Below, piece by piece: positions 36,314 to 43,848 of a stretch of DNA of 48,204 nt. A model generated the notes under the pieces. It saw only the letters and a program-made list of their open reading frames with translations. It did no database searches and was not told the origin of the DNA. The translations under genes and the position numbers were made by a program. Every line of letters starts with the position of its first letter. The stretch's first letter is position 1. This DNA comes from Pyrinomonadaceae bacterium. GTDB lineage: Bacteria > Acidobacteriota > Blastocatellia > Pyrinomonadales > Pyrinomonadaceae. The stretch spans positions 1 to 48,204 of the forward strand of contig JABDKD010000091.1 of NCBI GenBank assembly GCA_013003215.1. Direction: 5' to 3'.

Positions 36314-38743
36314 TCACATTCTTGCGAGAAGTTGTTCAAATCGTTCATCGTCCCTGATAGAAGCCAGGTTCGGGTCGCTTTCGTAAAGCGGCTTGTTTTC
36401 GTTTCCGAGACTAACGGCGCGATTAAGCCATTTGAAAGAGCGGTCAGTCTCGCCCAGATTCGCATACGCGACACCAACCCAATAAGCCATATCATGATCT
36501 GCCTTGGAGATACTTAGAGCTTCTGCGGATAGTTGCCTGCGCGCCTCTTCTTTTTTTCCGGATCCGGCGAGAATGAGTGCATAGAGCGGCCGGATTCCTT
36601 CCATTTGATCGTTCTCACTTAGCACCTGCTTCATCAGGTCAATCGCCTCGTCATTTCGGCCCATGTAGTAAAAAGAGGCGGAGCGGAAGATGCGGATCAT
36701 CGGGTGTTTCTTTTCGACCTTTGCTCCTCGGTCCAGTTCCTGCAGCGCCTTTTCATACTCGCCTTTGTAATTAAAGATTCGTGCGCGGTTATAACTCGAA
36801 ACGACTACTGCGGCGGGGTCCAGACGCGTAAGCTTGGCGAAGCTCTTAAGCGCTTCGTCGTACTCGCCATCCAGCCTGTGCACCGTGCCCTTAACAAAAT
36901 AAAGGGGCGCCTCGTTCGGAAAGAGGGTTTCCAGCTTCTGGATTTCTTCGCGCGCCTTGGCTTTTTCACCTTTTGCCATGTAGACGAGTACCATCAATAC
37001 ACGGGCTTCGGAAACGCGTTCGTCATACTCGATAGCCTTATTGAATGCCTCTTCTGCGAGTTCGTAATCCGCGGCCTCGCCCATTCCTTTGAAAATGCGG
37101 TTCGCATAGCAGGCGCCTAGTCCGCTATAAGCGAGTGCAAACTCAGGATCGAGCTCAAGGGCAGTTTTGAAATCAGCAATTGCTTCCTCGCAGTCCTTGT
37201 TGGAAACGGTTCGAAAAATAAATCGACCAAAACTATCACGGCCACGAAGATACTGTTCGTAGGCTGCGGCGTTCTCCGTTGGACGACGATTAAGAGTCTC
37301 CTGCTCCTTATCCGTCAGTTCTAAACGAAGTCCCTCTAGGATCTGAAGTGCAATTACATCCTGCAGGGCGAGAATATCCTCGCCTTCAGCATCAATCCTG
37401 TCGCCCCAAAGTATTTCACCGGTAATTACATCAAGCAGCTGGGCAGTTACACGCATTCTGCCGCTCCCTTTAATAAACCCGGCTGTCAGCACGGCGTGGA
37501 CCTTTAGCTCACGTCCCACCTCGCGTTCATCGATTTCCCTGCCTTGATACTTGGCAATTACGGAGCTGGGCCGAACAATCAAAGATTTCAGTCTGGCCAG
37601 TTCTGTGATCACCGCGTCGGCCAACGCGAATTCATAAAAGTCTGACTCGGGATCCCGATTCATATTCTTGAAAGGGAGTATCGCGACGCTCTTCTTTTCC
37701 TTTCCACCGGCGGTGTAAGTCGTATCCGGGGAGTAGGTCGGAGTGGTTTGGGTCGCGGAAACGGAACCTGTCGGGGACACAGAAACATCGACGCTCGATT
37801 TTCCCGTCAACCAGTTCCATGCCTTCTTCACAGGGTTCGCGGACTCAAGGTGCACGGGCTTGTACGCGTCCGCCTGAACCATTGGAACTCCGGTAATCTC
37901 CTGCATAACCATCCGGAGTTCGTCACGCATCGTATCGATTTTCTGATACCGGTCATTGGGGTTTTTCTGTAGGGCCTTATCAACGATCTCCTGGAGTTTT
38001 GGCGGAAAAGCGTCGGCCCTCATTTCCGCAATCGGAGTTGGGATGCCGTGCAGAACCTGGTGCCTTACATCGACTACCGTTTTGCCCTGGAATGCCCAAA
38101 TACCACACAGGAGCTCGTATACCAGGACGCCCGTTGAAAATATGTCAGCTCGGTGGTCAGTTGCCTCGCCCTTCGCTTGTTCAGGTGCGGCGTAGGTAGC
38201 AGTTCCGTAGGGAATACCCAATTCTGTGAGGTCCGTGCGGTCTATTTCCTTCGCATCTGCGGGAATCTCGTCCTGCATGAGCTTTGCAAGACCAAAATCG
38301 AGGATCTTCACCTTTCCTTCAGAGTCGACCATGACGTTGCCGGCCTTTATGTCACGGTGAATGATATTTCTCGAATGGGCATAAGCAAGGGCGTCACAAA
38401 CCTGAATCGCTATGTTGACGGCGCTCTTGAGTTCCAGCGGTCTTCCGTCAACAAGCTGCCTAACGTTTTTGCCATGAACGTACTGCATCGCGATATAGAA
38501 CGTACCGTCATCTTCGTGATAGTCGTATATCGTGCAGATATTAGGGTGGTCCAGCTGTGAACAGAGCTTTGCTTCGCGTTCGAATCGCTTGAAGTTAGCG
38601 GTTCTCGAGGTGAGTTCAGGTGGGAGCACCTTGATTACAACATCCCTGTCGAGTTTGGTGTCACGGGCTTTATAAACTGTTCCCTGACCGCCCGCACCGA
38701 GTTTCTTGAGGATTTCGTAATGGTGGATCTTGGAACCAATCAT
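36314..38743 (-). CDS. Serine/threonine protein kinase with TolB-like and TPR domains
   Basis: About 809 residues from the ATG at 38743; a GTG ten codons upstream is possible. Residues 9-275 are an Hanks-type kinase: glycine loop LGAGGQGTVYKA, Lys38 in VVIKV, HRDIKAGNVMV (129 onward), DFGLAKLM (149 onward) and YAAPEQAKGEATDHRAD. The middle region (about 355-480) begins KKSVAILPFKNMNRDPESDF and ends with LLDVITGEILWGDRID. It is the TolB N-terminal-like domain often joined to kinases or adenylate cyclases. The last 320 residues hold TPR repeats such as CEEAIADFKTALELDPEFAL. Unlike many bacterial kinases of this group it has no transmembrane helix, so it would be cytosolic. Its stop codon abuts that of the beta-helix gene. 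The target is not known. Confidence 0.93.
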   Translation of the reverse strand: MIGSKIHHYEILKKLGAGGQGTVYKARDTKLDRDVVIKVLPPELTSRTANFKRFEREAKLCSQLDHPNICTIYDYHEDDGTFYIAMQYVHGKNVRQLVDGRPLELKSAVNIAIQVCDALAYAHSRNIIHRDIKAGNVMVDSEGKVKILDFGLAKLMQDEIPADAKEIDRTDLTELGIPYGTATYAAPEQAKGEATDHRADIFSTGVLVYELLCGIWAFQGKTVVDVRHQVLHGIPTPIAEMRADAFPPKLQEIVDKALQKNPNDRYQKIDTMRDELRMVMQEITGVPMVQADAYKPVHLESANPVKKAWNWLTGKSSVDVSVSPTGSVSATQTTPTYSPDTTYTAGGKEKKSVAILPFKNMNRDPESDFYEFALADAVITELARLKSLIVRPSSVIAKYQGREIDEREVGRELKVHAVLTAGFIKGSGRMRVTAQLLDVITGEILWGDRIDAEGEDILALQDVIALQILEGLRLELTDKEQETLNRRPTENAAAYEQYLRGRDSFGRFIFRTVSNKDCEEAIADFKTALELDPEFALAYSGLGACYANRIFKGMGEAADYELAEEAFNKAIEYDERVSEARVLMVLVYMAKGEKAKAREEIQKLETLFPNEAPLYFVKGTVHRLDGEYDEALKSFAKLTRLDPAAVVVSSYNRARIFNYKGEYEKALQELDRGAKVEKKHPMIRIFRSASFYYMGRNDEAIDLMKQVLSENDQMEGIRPLYALILAGSGKKEEARRQLSAEALSISKADHDMAYWVGVAYANLGETDRSFKWLNRAVSLGNENKPLYESDPNLASIRDDERFEQLLARM

Positions 38744-38789
38744 AGGAAGCGATCCGTCTGCAAACGCGTGCACCGGATCTTATGATTTT

Positions 38790-38848: not shown

Positions 38849-39070
38849 TCAGCCGCGCGGGGGATCGCCCCACCCCGACTGCACGTACTCTCCGTTCTCA
38901 ACAATTACAGGCACGACGAGATCACCGCCGGTAAACTCCAGCATCTCTTTCTGTCGGTCACTGTCGTTTTGAGCATCATACTCGGTAAATTCCATTCCAT
39001 TTTCCGTGTAATGCGCTCTTGCTTTGTCACAGTAAGGACAGTTTGGCTTCGTATAAATAACCAGCGACAT
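38849..39070 (-). CDS. Glutaredoxin-like thiol-disulfide protein (CPYC)
   Basis: A 73-residue thioredoxin-fold protein. SLVIYTKPNCPYCDKARAHY contains the redox-active CPYC motif at about residues 11-14. The later VVPVIVENGEYVQ has the cis-proline. The ending SGWGDPPRG is a conserved tail of short glutaredoxin-like proteins related to the Uxx-star group, here with Cys rather than selenocysteine. It would reduce protein disulfides or carry an iron-sulfur cluster in the cytosol. GGAG stands at good distance before the chosen ATG; an upstream start at 39103 would add 11 residues of no known value. Confidence 0.88.
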   Translation of the reverse strand: MSLVIYTKPNCPYCDKARAHYTENGMEFTEYDAQNDSDRQKEMLEFTGGDLVVPVIVENGEYVQSGWGDPPRG

Positions 39071-39274
39071 AAAATAGTTCTCCGTATGGCAACAGTTTAG
39101 CAACTAAAGCCTGATAAGCAAATACTTTAACGAATTTTTTCAACAAGTTGCTGAAGACTGCGAAACCTTCTGTCGTATTTCGGCTGAATGCCCAACAGTA
39201 TTTCACCGATTGTGTAGATTTTCATTGTCACCAATAGTTGCCTTGATGCCTGTGACCTATCGGCAGACTTCCAA

Positions 39275-39370
39275 GAAAAACGGAAGCCCCCTGTAAGTAA
39301 CCGAGTAATCCTCGACACGTTCCGTTAAGTCGAGGAAGATCTATTCCTTACAGGAAGACTCCCGTTTTTC
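39275..39370. ncRNA. Nested three-helix element, candidate structured RNA
   Basis: Three inverted repeats are nested: GAAAAACGG with CCGTTTTTC (39275-39283 and 39362-39370, 9 bp); CCTGTAAG with CTTACAGG (39290-39297 and 39347-39354, 8 bp); and TCCTCGAC with GTCGAGGA (39309-39316 and 39329-39336, 8 bp). Internal loops are of similar size on both sides and the apical loop is 12 nt. All 25 pairs are Watson-Crick. Both strands end with a T-run after the outer helix. The element lies in a 1.4 kb region without a gene, 205 bp upstream of the glutaredoxin start. I do not recognise it as a known riboswitch. It could be a small RNA, a terminator-like element or a small mobile palindrome. Confidence 0.55.
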
Positions 39371-39713
39371 GCGCGCGATCAATACCTGATCGCCGGATTT
39401 CGCGTAAATCCTTCTTAGCAATCGAAGGTTTTGCACGAGGGGTGATTCGATTACTTCAAACAACGGCCAAGCGAATCTGTAATTCAGCGGTTCTGATTAT
39501 CTAAATATATCGATTCCGGGGAAAAACTCCATAAGGCATCAATTCGAATTATTCATCATCATAATCAAGAGTTGTTATTAAAGTGATCAATAATGACGGT
39601 CGGTGCAAGAGCTTTGCGACTTGATGAACCTAATTGTACGCAGGGGTCTCTAATCGTTTGGCATTACAAGGCCTTTCAGGACCTCGGAGCTGACTGAGGA
39701 TGGGCAATAAATT

Positions 39714-39750
39714 CCCCGGGGATTGAGAGCAGATGAGAAAATCCCCGGGG
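39714..39750. repeat. Strong hairpin with two CCCCGGGG arms
   Basis: CCCCGGGGATT (39714-39724) pairs perfectly with AATCCCCGGGG (39740-39750) across a 15-nt loop. Each arm also contains the self-complementary octamer CCCCGGGG. No T-run follows on either strand, so it is not a simple terminator; an operator or structured RNA is possible. Confidence 0.75.
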
Positions 39751-40222
39751 GCACGCCCTGTATCATTTACCAAAGAAAGACAAGACCTAGGAGAAACTGT
39801 CCGATTCGAAAATCTTCATCAGATCCTTCAGAAGTATACATTCATCTAATAATGCAGTCGAAATTGGAGTCATTCTAATCATTCATTGGATTCATAAGCG
39901 GTATTTATCGACGTTTTACCTCCCTAGAATCCTGGCGGGAGCTGAAAATCTTGGTGGAGCGGTAGGTAAATGATACTATTTGAAGCGCGCCGCAAAAAAT
40001 TTGCCCCTATATGGCTCTCACCGCCGCGATAAAAAAGGTTCGTGGTTTGATATGGAGTTGTGGCTTTTCGAAAAACGGAGTGCTTATTCCTTGGCCGTTG
40101 GTTTTAATAATGCCTGCGGTTTGGTTAGTAGTTGCAGTCCTTTCAGTTCAGGTCAAGAGTATTCTGCTCTGCGACGTTTAATATCCACATTCCGGGGTCG
40201 CACTGAGTTTAAGCGATTCGAG

Positions 40223-40246
40223 TTTACCGGGCCCACGTGGGGTAAA
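40223..40246. promoter_or_regulatory. Nested palindrome (candidate operator)
   Basis: TTTACC (40223-40228) and GGTAAA (40241-40246) flank the perfect 10-bp palindrome CCCACGTGGG (40232-40241), which overlaps the right arm by one base. It lies about 235 bp upstream of the first lysR start. A regulator-binding site is possible; there is no T-run for a terminator. Confidence 0.3.
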
Positions 40247-40480
40247 TGTTTTCGATTGCCAAATAGGTCCAGCAGGGTGCTGATAGACACTTCGGCCCTG
40301 TTCAGGTCGAAAAGGTACTCTGACAAAATCGCGGACTTTTATCTGCCTATCTCTTTTTACACAAGCACACAGTTAGATTATTGCCGTTTTGATTTCAAGT
40401 TTGATTAGTCAAACCAGGACTCTTAACCAAATTGAAGACAACGCGAAAGCGCGTGCTTTTGACGGTAAAGGAATAAGGAT

Positions 40481-41410
40481 ATGGAACTGTGGCAATTACG
40501 AACTTTTCGGGCGGTAGCAAGAACTCTTCATTTTACAAGGGCAGCTAAAGAATTGAATTTGAGCCAGCCAGCCGTCAGTCATCAGATTAAGTCGCTCGAA
40601 CAAGAGCTGTCGACACAGCTTTTCGTGCGCGAGCGAGGAAAAATTTCTTTAACGACCACAGGCGAGGTGATGCTTGAACATGCTGACCGCATTCTGGAGA
40701 TCGCTGACAAGATTAAGTACGACATTGAGGGTTCACGCAATTCTCCGAACGGCAGAATAACGGTCGCGGCGGTATCTCGCAGTCTCTATAACCCCTTTCC
40801 AAAACTATACTTAGAATTTAAGAAAGCTCACCCGGAATTAGTCCTCGGTTATCATAACGAGCCAAGCGTAGAATTGATTCTGGAGGGAATTAGAAGCAAA
40901 AGGATTGACATCGGGTTTGTGGTTGGAGAGCCAAGCGCAAGCTACTTCTCCAGTATCCCTTTCGGCGTTTCAAAACTGCTTTGCGTAGCTGCGCCAAACC
41001 ATAAGATCAATCAAGTCAAAGATCTCGAACCCGCGATGCTTGATCACGAGGATTGGGCTTTGTTCGAAAGGGGCGATGAGATGCGGGCAATGATTGATGA
41101 GCTCTTCGATTCCATCGGGTTGAATCCGACCTCGATCTATTCTACGAACGACGGGGCCGTGATACGGGATTTGGTAAGCGCCGGAGAATTTGTTTCGATT
41201 CTTCCGACGAGAGGCATTTCACATGACCTTGAGTCGGGTAGCCTGTTGCAGGTTCCCTTGCCAGAGTTGGAAATGGAATTTGAGCTCTATTGCGTTTGGC
41301 TCAAAGGTGGGGCCGGCAAGCTTATAAACGCATTCCTCAAGTTTATTCTGGAAAGAGATTTACCCGGTATACGTCTTGCCCGGCCGCGAGGGGAAAGTGC
41401 GAAAGCGTGA
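40481..41410 (+). CDS. LysR-family transcriptional regulator (1 of 3)
   Basis: A 309-residue LTTR. The N-terminal winged helix-turn-helix is textbook: LWQLRTFRAVARTLHFTRAA, KELNLSQPAVSHQIKSLEQE, LFVRERGKISLTTTGEVML. The effector domain (about 90-300) has two Rossmann-like lobes, with RIDIGFVVGEPS and ALFERGDEMRAM, then NDGAVIRDLVSAGEFVSILP. The opening is closest to CbbR/CysB-like regulators. The inducer cannot be told. An AAGGA ribosome-binding site stands before the ATG. It is the first of three tandem paralogues; sequence similarity is strong in the DNA-binding domain and lower in the effector domain, so they probably respond to different signals but related sites. Confidence 0.93.
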   Translation: MELWQLRTFRAVARTLHFTRAAKELNLSQPAVSHQIKSLEQELSTQLFVRERGKISLTTTGEVMLEHADRILEIADKIKYDIEGSRNSPNGRITVAAVSRSLYNPFPKLYLEFKKAHPELVLGYHNEPSVELILEGIRSKRIDIGFVVGEPSASYFSSIPFGVSKLLCVAAPNHKINQVKDLEPAMLDHEDWALFERGDEMRAMIDELFDSIGLNPTSIYSTNDGAVIRDLVSAGEFVSILPTRGISHDLESGSLLQVPLPELEMEFELYCVWLKGGAGKLINAFLKFILERDLPGIRLARPRGESAKA

Positions 41411-41432
41411 ATTTCCGGGACCAATTTCAGTA

Positions 41433-41458
41433 GATCGTGATATGTTTTAACAACGATC
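41433..41458. promoter_or_regulatory. Inverted repeat between the first two lysR genes (candidate operator)
   Basis: GATCGT (41433-41438) and ACGATC (41453-41458) flank TGTT-TT-AACA. It lies 23 bp after the first lysR stop and 170 bp before the second start. LTTR sites are often imperfect dyads of the form T-N11-A, so an autoregulatory site is possible. The remaining gap holds no gene. Confidence 0.3.
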
Positions 41459-41627
41459 CCCCAACATGAGTTACTTAATTCTTCGTTCCGACCGGAGGAG
41501 ACGTTTCCGGGCTAGTGCGGTCCGGCTTTGTCGTTGACGAGGCTCTATTTTAGAATCCGAAAAAAATCAATTTCTTCTGCAGCTTTACGGGCCTGCTGTA
41601 AGATCTTGCTACAAGTATCCGTAAATT

Positions 41628-42554
41628 ATGGACCTTTGGCATTTAAGAACATTTAGGACTGTTGCGAGAACATTGCATTTTACGCGAGCTTCGGAGGAGC
41701 TTAACTTGAGCCAACCAGCTGTAAGTCATCAGATTAAGACTCTTGAAAGGGAGTTGGGTGAGCAATTATTTGTCCGGGGTCGAAATGCGGTATCTCTGAC
41801 TCCTTCAGGGGAAGTGATGCTTGAGCACGCCGCAAAAATTCTCGACATCACCGATTCGCTAAGGGAAGAAATTGAGGAGACACGGCGGAAAGAGGATTCG
41901 ACGGTCATCCTGAGCATGGTCGCGCGCGGCACCGATTCAAATTTTGCAGATCTTTATCGGTGGTTCCGCAAGGCCCATCCTAGTATCAAGCTGGAACTCC
42001 GGCTGGAGCCCGATGTTGCCAGTATTCGAACGGGCATTCGTATGGATAGGCTCAATGTTGGCCTTGTCTCGGAACAAATAGATTCCGATGAATTCGTTTG
42101 TGTTTCATACGGCTGGAATAAATTGCAGTTAGTCGTTGGCGCGGATCATCGCCTCGCATCGATGGGAACCGTGACGGCTGAACAGCTTAGGAATGAGCGC
42201 TGGGGCTTATTCAGGCAGGGAGATCCGCTACGCGACAAAACTGACAAAATGCTTGCGGAAGCCGGCTTAACTCCTAGATCGATTTTTGAAAGTAATGATG
42301 GCATGACGATCAGGAATCTGATCGCCGTCGGGGAACTCATCGGGTTTATGCCGTCTACCGGCATCGTGAAAGACATTGCCGCTGGGTCTCTTAAAGAAAT
42401 CAAGGTCGAAGGAATAGATGCGGAAATTGAAGCATTTGTTTTCTGGAAATCTGGAAAGAAATCTGCGAGCATCGCTAAGCTGGTTCGGTTCATGATCGAA
42501 CAAGAACTACCCGGCTTTCGTCTTTCCAGACTGAAAAAGAAAGGTGGTAAGTAA
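41628..42554 (+). CDS. LysR-family transcriptional regulator (2 of 3)
   Basis: A 308-residue LTTR. The DNA-binding domain (LWHLRTFRTVARTLHFTRAS, EELNLSQPAVSHQIKTLERE) is nearly the same as that of copy 1, with the same recognition helix QPAVSHQIK. The effector domain is divergent (RLNVGLVSEQIDSDEF, GLFRQGDPLRDKTDK, NDGMTIRNLIAVGELIGFMP). The stretch NDG.TI.dL.a.GE is shared by all three copies and appears to be part of the ligand-binding lobe. It lies 217 bp after copy 1 and 66 bp before copy 3. No good Shine-Dalgarno sequence is visible. Confidence 0.93.
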   Translation: MDLWHLRTFRTVARTLHFTRASEELNLSQPAVSHQIKTLERELGEQLFVRGRNAVSLTPSGEVMLEHAAKILDITDSLREEIEETRRKEDSTVILSMVARGTDSNFADLYRWFRKAHPSIKLELRLEPDVASIRTGIRMDRLNVGLVSEQIDSDEFVCVSYGWNKLQLVVGADHRLASMGTVTAEQLRNERWGLFRQGDPLRDKTDKMLAEAGLTPRSIFESNDGMTIRNLIAVGELIGFMPSTGIVKDIAAGSLKEIKVEGIDAEIEAFVFWKSGKKSASIAKLVRFMIEQELPGFRLSRLKKKGGK

Positions 42555-42620
42555 TAATCTTCAGATAAAGTTGTCCTCATACGGGTAACAATCTACTTTT
42601 TTAAGAACCCCCATTTTCCC

Positions 42621-43547
42621 ATGGATCTCTGGCAGCTGCGGACATTTCTCACTGTATCTCGAGTCCTTAATTTTACAAGGGCCGCCGAAGAACTGAACCT
42701 AAGTCAGCCTGCTGTTAGTCATCATATTAAGTCCATCGAACGGCAGATTGGCGAACCTGTTTTTGAGCGGAGCAGACAAGGAGTAGAACTCACTCCGGCC
42801 GGGCAGATCCTTGTTGAATATGCAAAAGAGATTGTTGGTGTTGTCGATGACTTAAAGCAAAGGATCGATAATAACCGGGACGAAATTGAGGGGATCGTAT
42901 TGATAGGCGGCGTGACCAGGTCATTCGATGTTCCGTTTGTTCAAGTTCAGCAGGCGTTTAGTGCGGTACATCCGGATCTGAAAATGAGGTTTCGAAACTT
43001 CATGTCAAGTGAGGAGTTGTTTCAGGCACTCGAAAGATCTTACGTCGACGTTGCGCTTTTCGAAGACAAACCGGATGAGAAGAAATTCGATTTTGTACCA
43101 TACGGCAATATCAAGATGTCGCTCGTGGCAGGATCAAACCATAGATTTGCAGGAAAATCAGAAATTGACCCGGTATTGTTAAACTATGAAAAATGGGCGC
43201 TGTTCGAAAAAGGTGATATTTACCGGACCCTGGTAGAGAAGGTATTTCGGCATGTTGGTATCGAACCTAAATCCATAAATGAGACAAACGACGGATCGGT
43301 AATACTTGACCTTCTTGCTACGGGTAATTATGTTTCAGTTCTTGGCGGATTCGATTATCCGCGTGATCTTAAGGAGGGTTTACTGGTAGAGTTGTCTGCA
43401 CCGGATTTTGATATCCATTTGCCTACGTTCGTGGCATGGCGAAAAGAGAACAAGATGCCGGCAGTCGATGCGTTTGTACAATTTTTTATCAAACATGCGC
43501 TTCCCGGAGTTACACCTTCAGAACTCGTTTCAGATAATGAATCCTGA
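42621..43547 (+). CDS. LysR-family transcriptional regulator (3 of 3)
   Basis: A 308-residue LTTR of the same subfamily. DNA-binding domain: LWQLRTFLTVSRVLNFTRAA, EELNLSQPAVSHHIKSIERQ. Effector domain: YVDVALFEDKPDEKKFDF, ALFEKGDIYRTLVEK, NDGSVILDLLATGNYVSVLG. The recognition helix differs by one residue (SHHIK instead of SHQIK). The last 11 bp overlap the start of the iron-sulfur protein gene, so the two are co-transcribed and probably act in one response. The effector lobe is the most divergent of the three. Confidence 0.93.
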   Translation: MDLWQLRTFLTVSRVLNFTRAAEELNLSQPAVSHHIKSIERQIGEPVFERSRQGVELTPAGQILVEYAKEIVGVVDDLKQRIDNNRDEIEGIVLIGGVTRSFDVPFVQVQQAFSAVHPDLKMRFRNFMSSEELFQALERSYVDVALFEDKPDEKKFDFVPYGNIKMSLVAGSNHRFAGKSEIDPVLLNYEKWALFEKGDIYRTLVEKVFRHVGIEPKSINETNDGSVILDLLATGNYVSVLGGFDYPRDLKEGLLVELSAPDFDIHLPTFVAWRKENKMPAVDAFVQFFIKHALPGVTPSELVSDNES

Positions 43548-43848
43548 CGATTATAAAGACATATTTGAGCCTTTTGACAGGCTTGTTGAAATTGAGATCC
43601 TCGGCAAGACGTTCGAGGTTCCTGAAAACAATTCATTACTGCGGTGTTTTCAATACCTCAGTCTCGATTCGGTCTCAAAAGGGGATTTTTGCTGGAACCG
43701 GGACTGCATGAACTGCCAGGTGTGGATCGACAATAACGGCAAAGAGAAAGCCCTGATTTCCTGCCGCGCGAAGGTCAAGGAGGGTATGAAAATTGTTAGG
43801 CTGCACGAAGAGGTTGTGCTCGAAGACCTCGACCTCGATGATTCGTGA
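43537..43848 (+). CDS. [2Fe-2S] ferredoxin-like small protein
   Basis: A 103-residue protein. Residues about 15-95 resemble the beta-grasp 2Fe-2S fold. The cysteine set is GDFCWNRDCMNCQVWI and then ALISCRAKV, giving C-x4-C-x2-C-x(n)-C, the spacing of plant-type and NuoG/SdhB-like [2Fe-2S] domains. The start (ATG 43537) overlaps the end of the third lysR gene by 11 bp. No fused oxidoreductase is present, so it would serve as an electron carrier or redox sensor. The overlap with a regulator suggests that it takes part in a redox response together with the LysR proteins; that is inference. Confidence 0.8.
   Translation: MNPDDYKDIFEPFDRLVEIEILGKTFEVPENNSLLRCFQYLSLDSVSKGDFCWNRDCMNCQVWIDNNGKEKALISCRAKVKEGMKIVRLHEEVVLEDLDLDDS

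Follow-up and report, generated by a model that had tools for sequence, protein, structure and literature searches.

Bidirectional transcription terminators with flanking runs of A and T are known (PMC1852404), and REPs are palindromes of 20-40 bp that occur in high copy number (PMC3733652). Our literature search returned nothing specific on terminators or palindromes in the bacterial group considered here. The element described below occupies positions 39275-39370 of the window, by which we mean the whole stretch of 48,204 nt analysed from a Pyrinomonadaceae bacterium (contig JABDKD010000091.1). With intrinsic terminators it shares a base in which an A-run pairs with a T-run, GC-rich pairs above that base, a minus-strand U-tract, and a location ahead of what is probably the promoter of the following unit. 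It differs from them in its 23-pair outer stem and second nested hairpin, which are far above the usual length, in having no annotated upstream gene, and in its poor plus-strand U-tract. Like REP and MITE elements it is an intergenic palindrome, here of an acidobacterium with a palindrome-rich genome, but it is present in a single copy, measures 96 nt, and lacks a target-site duplication. A strong nested RNA fold is also typical of the structured RNAs and riboswitches in Rfam; unlike those, the element matches no family, has no homologous sequence in relatives, and lies outside the probable mRNA leader. We infer that it is a long intrinsic (Rho-independent) terminator that would act mainly on the minus strand and insulate a glutaredoxin-kinase unit, a reading to which we assign a probability of about 0.65.

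Architecture and stability of the hairpin

The positions of the three nested helices given in the preliminary description proved exact. The helices comprise 9, 8, and 8 Watson-Crick pairs with zero mismatches, span 96 nt, and are separated by internal loops of 6/7 and 11/10 nt, with a terminal loop of 12 nt. The parts of the element are as follows.

39275-39370, minus strand: whole terminator-like long hairpin (from folds and helix mapping; with a U-tract required, none of 500 shuffles does as well)
39275-39283, no strand assigned: outer helix, left arm GAAAAACGG, which holds the minus-strand U-tract (helix mapping)
39362-39370, no strand assigned: outer helix, right arm CCGTTTTTC (helix mapping)
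39290-39297, no strand assigned: middle helix, left arm CCTGTAAG (helix mapping)
39347-39354, no strand assigned: middle helix, right arm CTTACAGG (helix mapping)
39309-39316, no strand assigned: inner helix, left arm TCCTCGAC (helix mapping)
39329-39336, no strand assigned: inner helix, right arm GTCGAGGA (helix mapping)

Read on the minus strand, the outer helix merges with the middle one to give a single 23-pair stem that includes three G-U pairs and a bulged T and terminates in CGTTTTTCTT; an internal loop and then the 8-pair inner stem follow above it. Each of the three non-Watson-Crick pairs in the outer stem is a G-U wobble in the minus-strand RNA and an A-C mismatch on the plus strand, and the energy of the hairpin alone is -48.7 kcal/mol on the minus versus -37.2 kcal/mol on the plus strand. 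It had been claimed that the fold is far more than chance would provide, which was borne out. The minus-strand fold (136 nt) has an energy of -57.5 kcal/mol (z -5.81), equalled by 0 of 200 shuffles, and the plus-strand fold reaches -41.3 kcal/mol (z -3.91), equalled by 1 of 200. Among 12,028 segments of 96 nt drawn from the whole 48 kb, the element ranks third.

T-runs on both strands after the outer helix had also been described as a terminator-like trait. The trait itself stands, whereas its placement and its presence on both strands had to be corrected. The A5 and T5 runs are basal pairs inside the outer helix and not tails beyond it. Furthermore, a good U-tract (TTTTTCTT) is confined to the minus strand, because past the outer helix this strand runs on as TTGG and the plus strand as GCGCGC; the plus strand fails a test for six T in eight positions. 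When a U-tract was required in the score, the minus strand was matched by 0 of 500 shuffles and the plus strand gave nothing significant. On the minus strand, the element thus combines a stable GC-containing hairpin beyond chance with a U-tract at the 3' edge of that hairpin, as intrinsic terminators do.

Neighbouring genes and the probable glutaredoxin promoter region

The hairpin is flanked by divergent genes, and no annotated gene ends at it in this genome. It sits 205 nt upstream of the minus-strand glutaredoxin-kinase unit and 1.1 kb from the first LysR gene. Judging from named relatives of the kinase, the genome belongs to an acidobacterium of the Pyrinomonadaceae type. The surrounding features are listed here.

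36314-38773, minus strand: TPR-repeat Ser/Thr kinase, encoded downstream of glutaredoxin (Pfam PF00069; 39 related loci)
38849-39070, minus strand: glutaredoxin, probably the insulated unit (Pfam PF00462; homologues in 57 of 60 family genomes)
39071-39128, minus strand: conserved probable promoter or 5' region of glutaredoxin, containing TTTAGTTGCTAAACT (80% identity to L129 up to the start codon; motif common to many relatives)
40481-41410, plus strand: first LysR regulator in a tandem array of three, divergent from glutaredoxin (Pfam PF00126/PF03466, synteny)

No credible gene was found in the 1.4-kb gap between glutaredoxin and LysR (39071-40480), including the part from 39370 to 40480. An ORF at 39980-40408 was dropped as a gene, having no family match and no counterpart among related loci, and a tblastn search of the gap for a decayed DUF4032-like gene gave no signal. 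The same empty region holds another palindrome at 39714-39750 (CCCCGGGGATT...AATCCCCGGGG) with 11-bp arms, a 15-nt loop, and no good T-run. On the far side of the gap, positions 40481-43794 carry the three tandem, diverged LysR genes and then a ferredoxin-like gene on the same strand (about 43537-43794). At the corresponding place, the congener G001 has two LysR copies and L129 has none.

On the minus strand, the hairpin comes first, then the region with TTTAGTTGCTAAACT, and then glutaredoxin. The last 58 nt before the glutaredoxin start codon are 80% identical to those of the closest relative, L129, with the motif in both genomes, and its core persists even where relatives have no more than about 75 nt between glutaredoxin and a divergent ferredoxin. 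We therefore take this stretch to be the probable glutaredoxin promoter region. A riboswitch or attenuator within the glutaredoxin leader would account for a terminator-like element on the same strand as, and upstream of, the gene. This is nevertheless very improbable. The hairpin probably lies outside the leader and the mRNA because the promoter-like motif stands between it and the gene and persists even in the divergent gaps of about 75 nt, and neither a conserved aptamer sequence nor a family match was found. Rfam returned no match at the gathering score across the whole window and, near the element, no credible match even at E<=10, in agreement with the initial failure to recognise a riboswitch in it. 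A conserved sequence with covariation could also identify a structured RNA, but the 118 other family genomes searched offer no homologous sequences to align.

The same locus in relatives

In the family, the gene order is rhodanese, ferredoxin, (LysR, DUF4032-like gene), glutaredoxin, and kinase, where the bracketed module is present or absent. The small DUF4032-like gene stands repeatedly divergent from LysR (L121-L124, L127, and L168-L180), and the two are probably a regulator-target pair. At six of nine loci with LysR, the DUF4032-like gene, and glutaredoxin in this order, where the DUF4032-like gene shares the strand of glutaredoxin, the gap before glutaredoxin holds a terminator-like hairpin on that strand (p<0.05 versus shuffles, taking the better of two span settings); the hairpins in the remaining three DUF4032-like-glutaredoxin gaps are weaker and not significant. 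One of the six (L013/L121) has a long nested palindrome much like that at 39275-39370. In these relatives, the DUF4032-like gene ends at the slot that corresponds to the hairpin, a slot where no gene ends in the genome studied here.

This genome and its congener G001 (L130) have LysR at the site, no detected DUF4032-like gene, and a hairpin in both cases. The hairpin of G001 is a perfect 14-bp A4/T4 hairpin (p<=0.006) located 177-217 nt upstream of glutaredoxin, compared with 205-300 nt in the window, and both hairpins are significant in the glutaredoxin orientation only. The closest relative, L129, lacks LysR, the DUF4032-like gene, and a significant hairpin on the glutaredoxin strand; on its antisense strand a hairpin was matched with p=0.006 at one span setting. 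Homology between the window and L129 stops short of the hairpin, at a point beyond the probable glutaredoxin promoter.

The hairpins of the relatives cannot be aligned and are alike in position and orientation alone, so they need not share a common descent. A search of 118 other genomes of the family revealed no sequence homologue of the element, just chance stretches of 22-32 nt. A match in G013 was rejected as a homologue; it covers a different stretch (about 39126-39159) within a probable coding region. The novel structured RNA implied by the preliminary description is therefore unsupported, because the hairpins share position and orientation, as terminators do, and not sequence; moreover, the probable glutaredoxin mRNA does not include the element.

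Copies and palindromes elsewhere in the genome

Large intergenic palindromes are a habit of this genome, and the element at 39275-39370 is not exceptional there. Counts over roughly 0.76 Mb of the genome, based on simple long-ORF gene calls, gave 24 palindromes of comparable score in 361 intergenic regions (72 kb) versus 0.7 in shuffles, and the folds of ten further intergenic regions are at least equally good. With the same gene calls, strong palindromes are found more often between convergent genes (10 of 57 regions) than between divergent ones (3 of 86), a bias that counts in favour of a terminator. Many of the intergenic palindromes consist of inverted degenerate heptad-like repeats (AGTTTCA, GATTGAT, and similar) that form long hairpins, among them L113:5555-5670, L057:3444-3569, L095:4782-4910, and L056:3084-3197. 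A near-identical pair of 119-nt palindromes with a MITE-like look is found at L094:5986-6104 and L093:4637-4755.

The main alternative to a terminator is that the hairpin is a stray intergenic palindrome, a mobile or repeat-derived relic without a function of its own. The roughly 30-fold excess of comparable palindromes over shuffles, many of them built from degenerate repeats, the presence of at least one near-identical pair of about 119 nt, and the point at which homology with L129 breaks off all speak for such an origin. A mobile palindrome in many copies had been named from the outset as what the element might turn out to be, but the sequence search counted one copy in its own genome, and no target-site duplication is visible at its ends, where the flanks (...CTTCCAA / GCGCGCG...) are not repeats. 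Neither of the marks of a REP or MITE, multiple copies and a target-site duplication, is thus present. Besides the family genomes, plasmids yielded one 32-nt chance match and phages none. In addition, 23 minus-strand pairs without a true mismatch, with all wobbles suited to one strand, point to upkeep as RNA, and the position of the hairpin recurs in relatives. Taken with these findings, a relic appears unlikely, although it deserves more weight than any of the other alternatives.

Proposed role as a terminator

The hairpin is real and far from random, yet ordinary in kind; most likely it is an unusually long transcription stop signal. RNA polymerase that approaches leftward from LysR would copy the palindrome into RNA, which would fold into the 23-pair stem capped by the second hairpin. 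At the U-tract, about 150 nt short of the probable glutaredoxin promoter, the transcript would then be freed, which would insulate the glutaredoxin-kinase unit from read-through. The place of the element argues against a terminator, since none would be expected in a gap between divergent genes, and so does its form, as the stem far exceeds the typical length and three parts are not needed for termination. We propose that the terminator now stands between divergent genes because the gene it once followed has been lost or because it ends an unannotated transcript. The hairpin is perhaps a leftover of a DUF4032-like gene that may have been lost, as suggested by the distribution of the module in the family, with no remnants found in the gap.

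If an unannotated transcript ends at the hairpin, the element could be the terminator and stable body at the 3' end of a leftward small RNA from the 1.1-kb empty region. Its strong fold and the lack of a credible gene in 39370-40480 would suit such an RNA, and a terminator amid divergent genes requires some transcript to end. On the other hand, the region has one weak promoter-like site, which is below chance expectation, and the element shows no Rfam match and no sequence conservation across the family genomes, which makes this origin improbable. Slightly less probable again is a species-restricted small RNA, transcribed from the gap between LysR and glutaredoxin, that has a long nested terminal hairpin and controls one of these two.

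As a terminator, the element would be of little consequence beyond annotation. What the locus illustrates is that synteny can explain a striking fold in an empty gap: relatives repeatedly have a terminator-like hairpin at this place and in this orientation even as its sequence turns over, and the gene that it would have served is gone.
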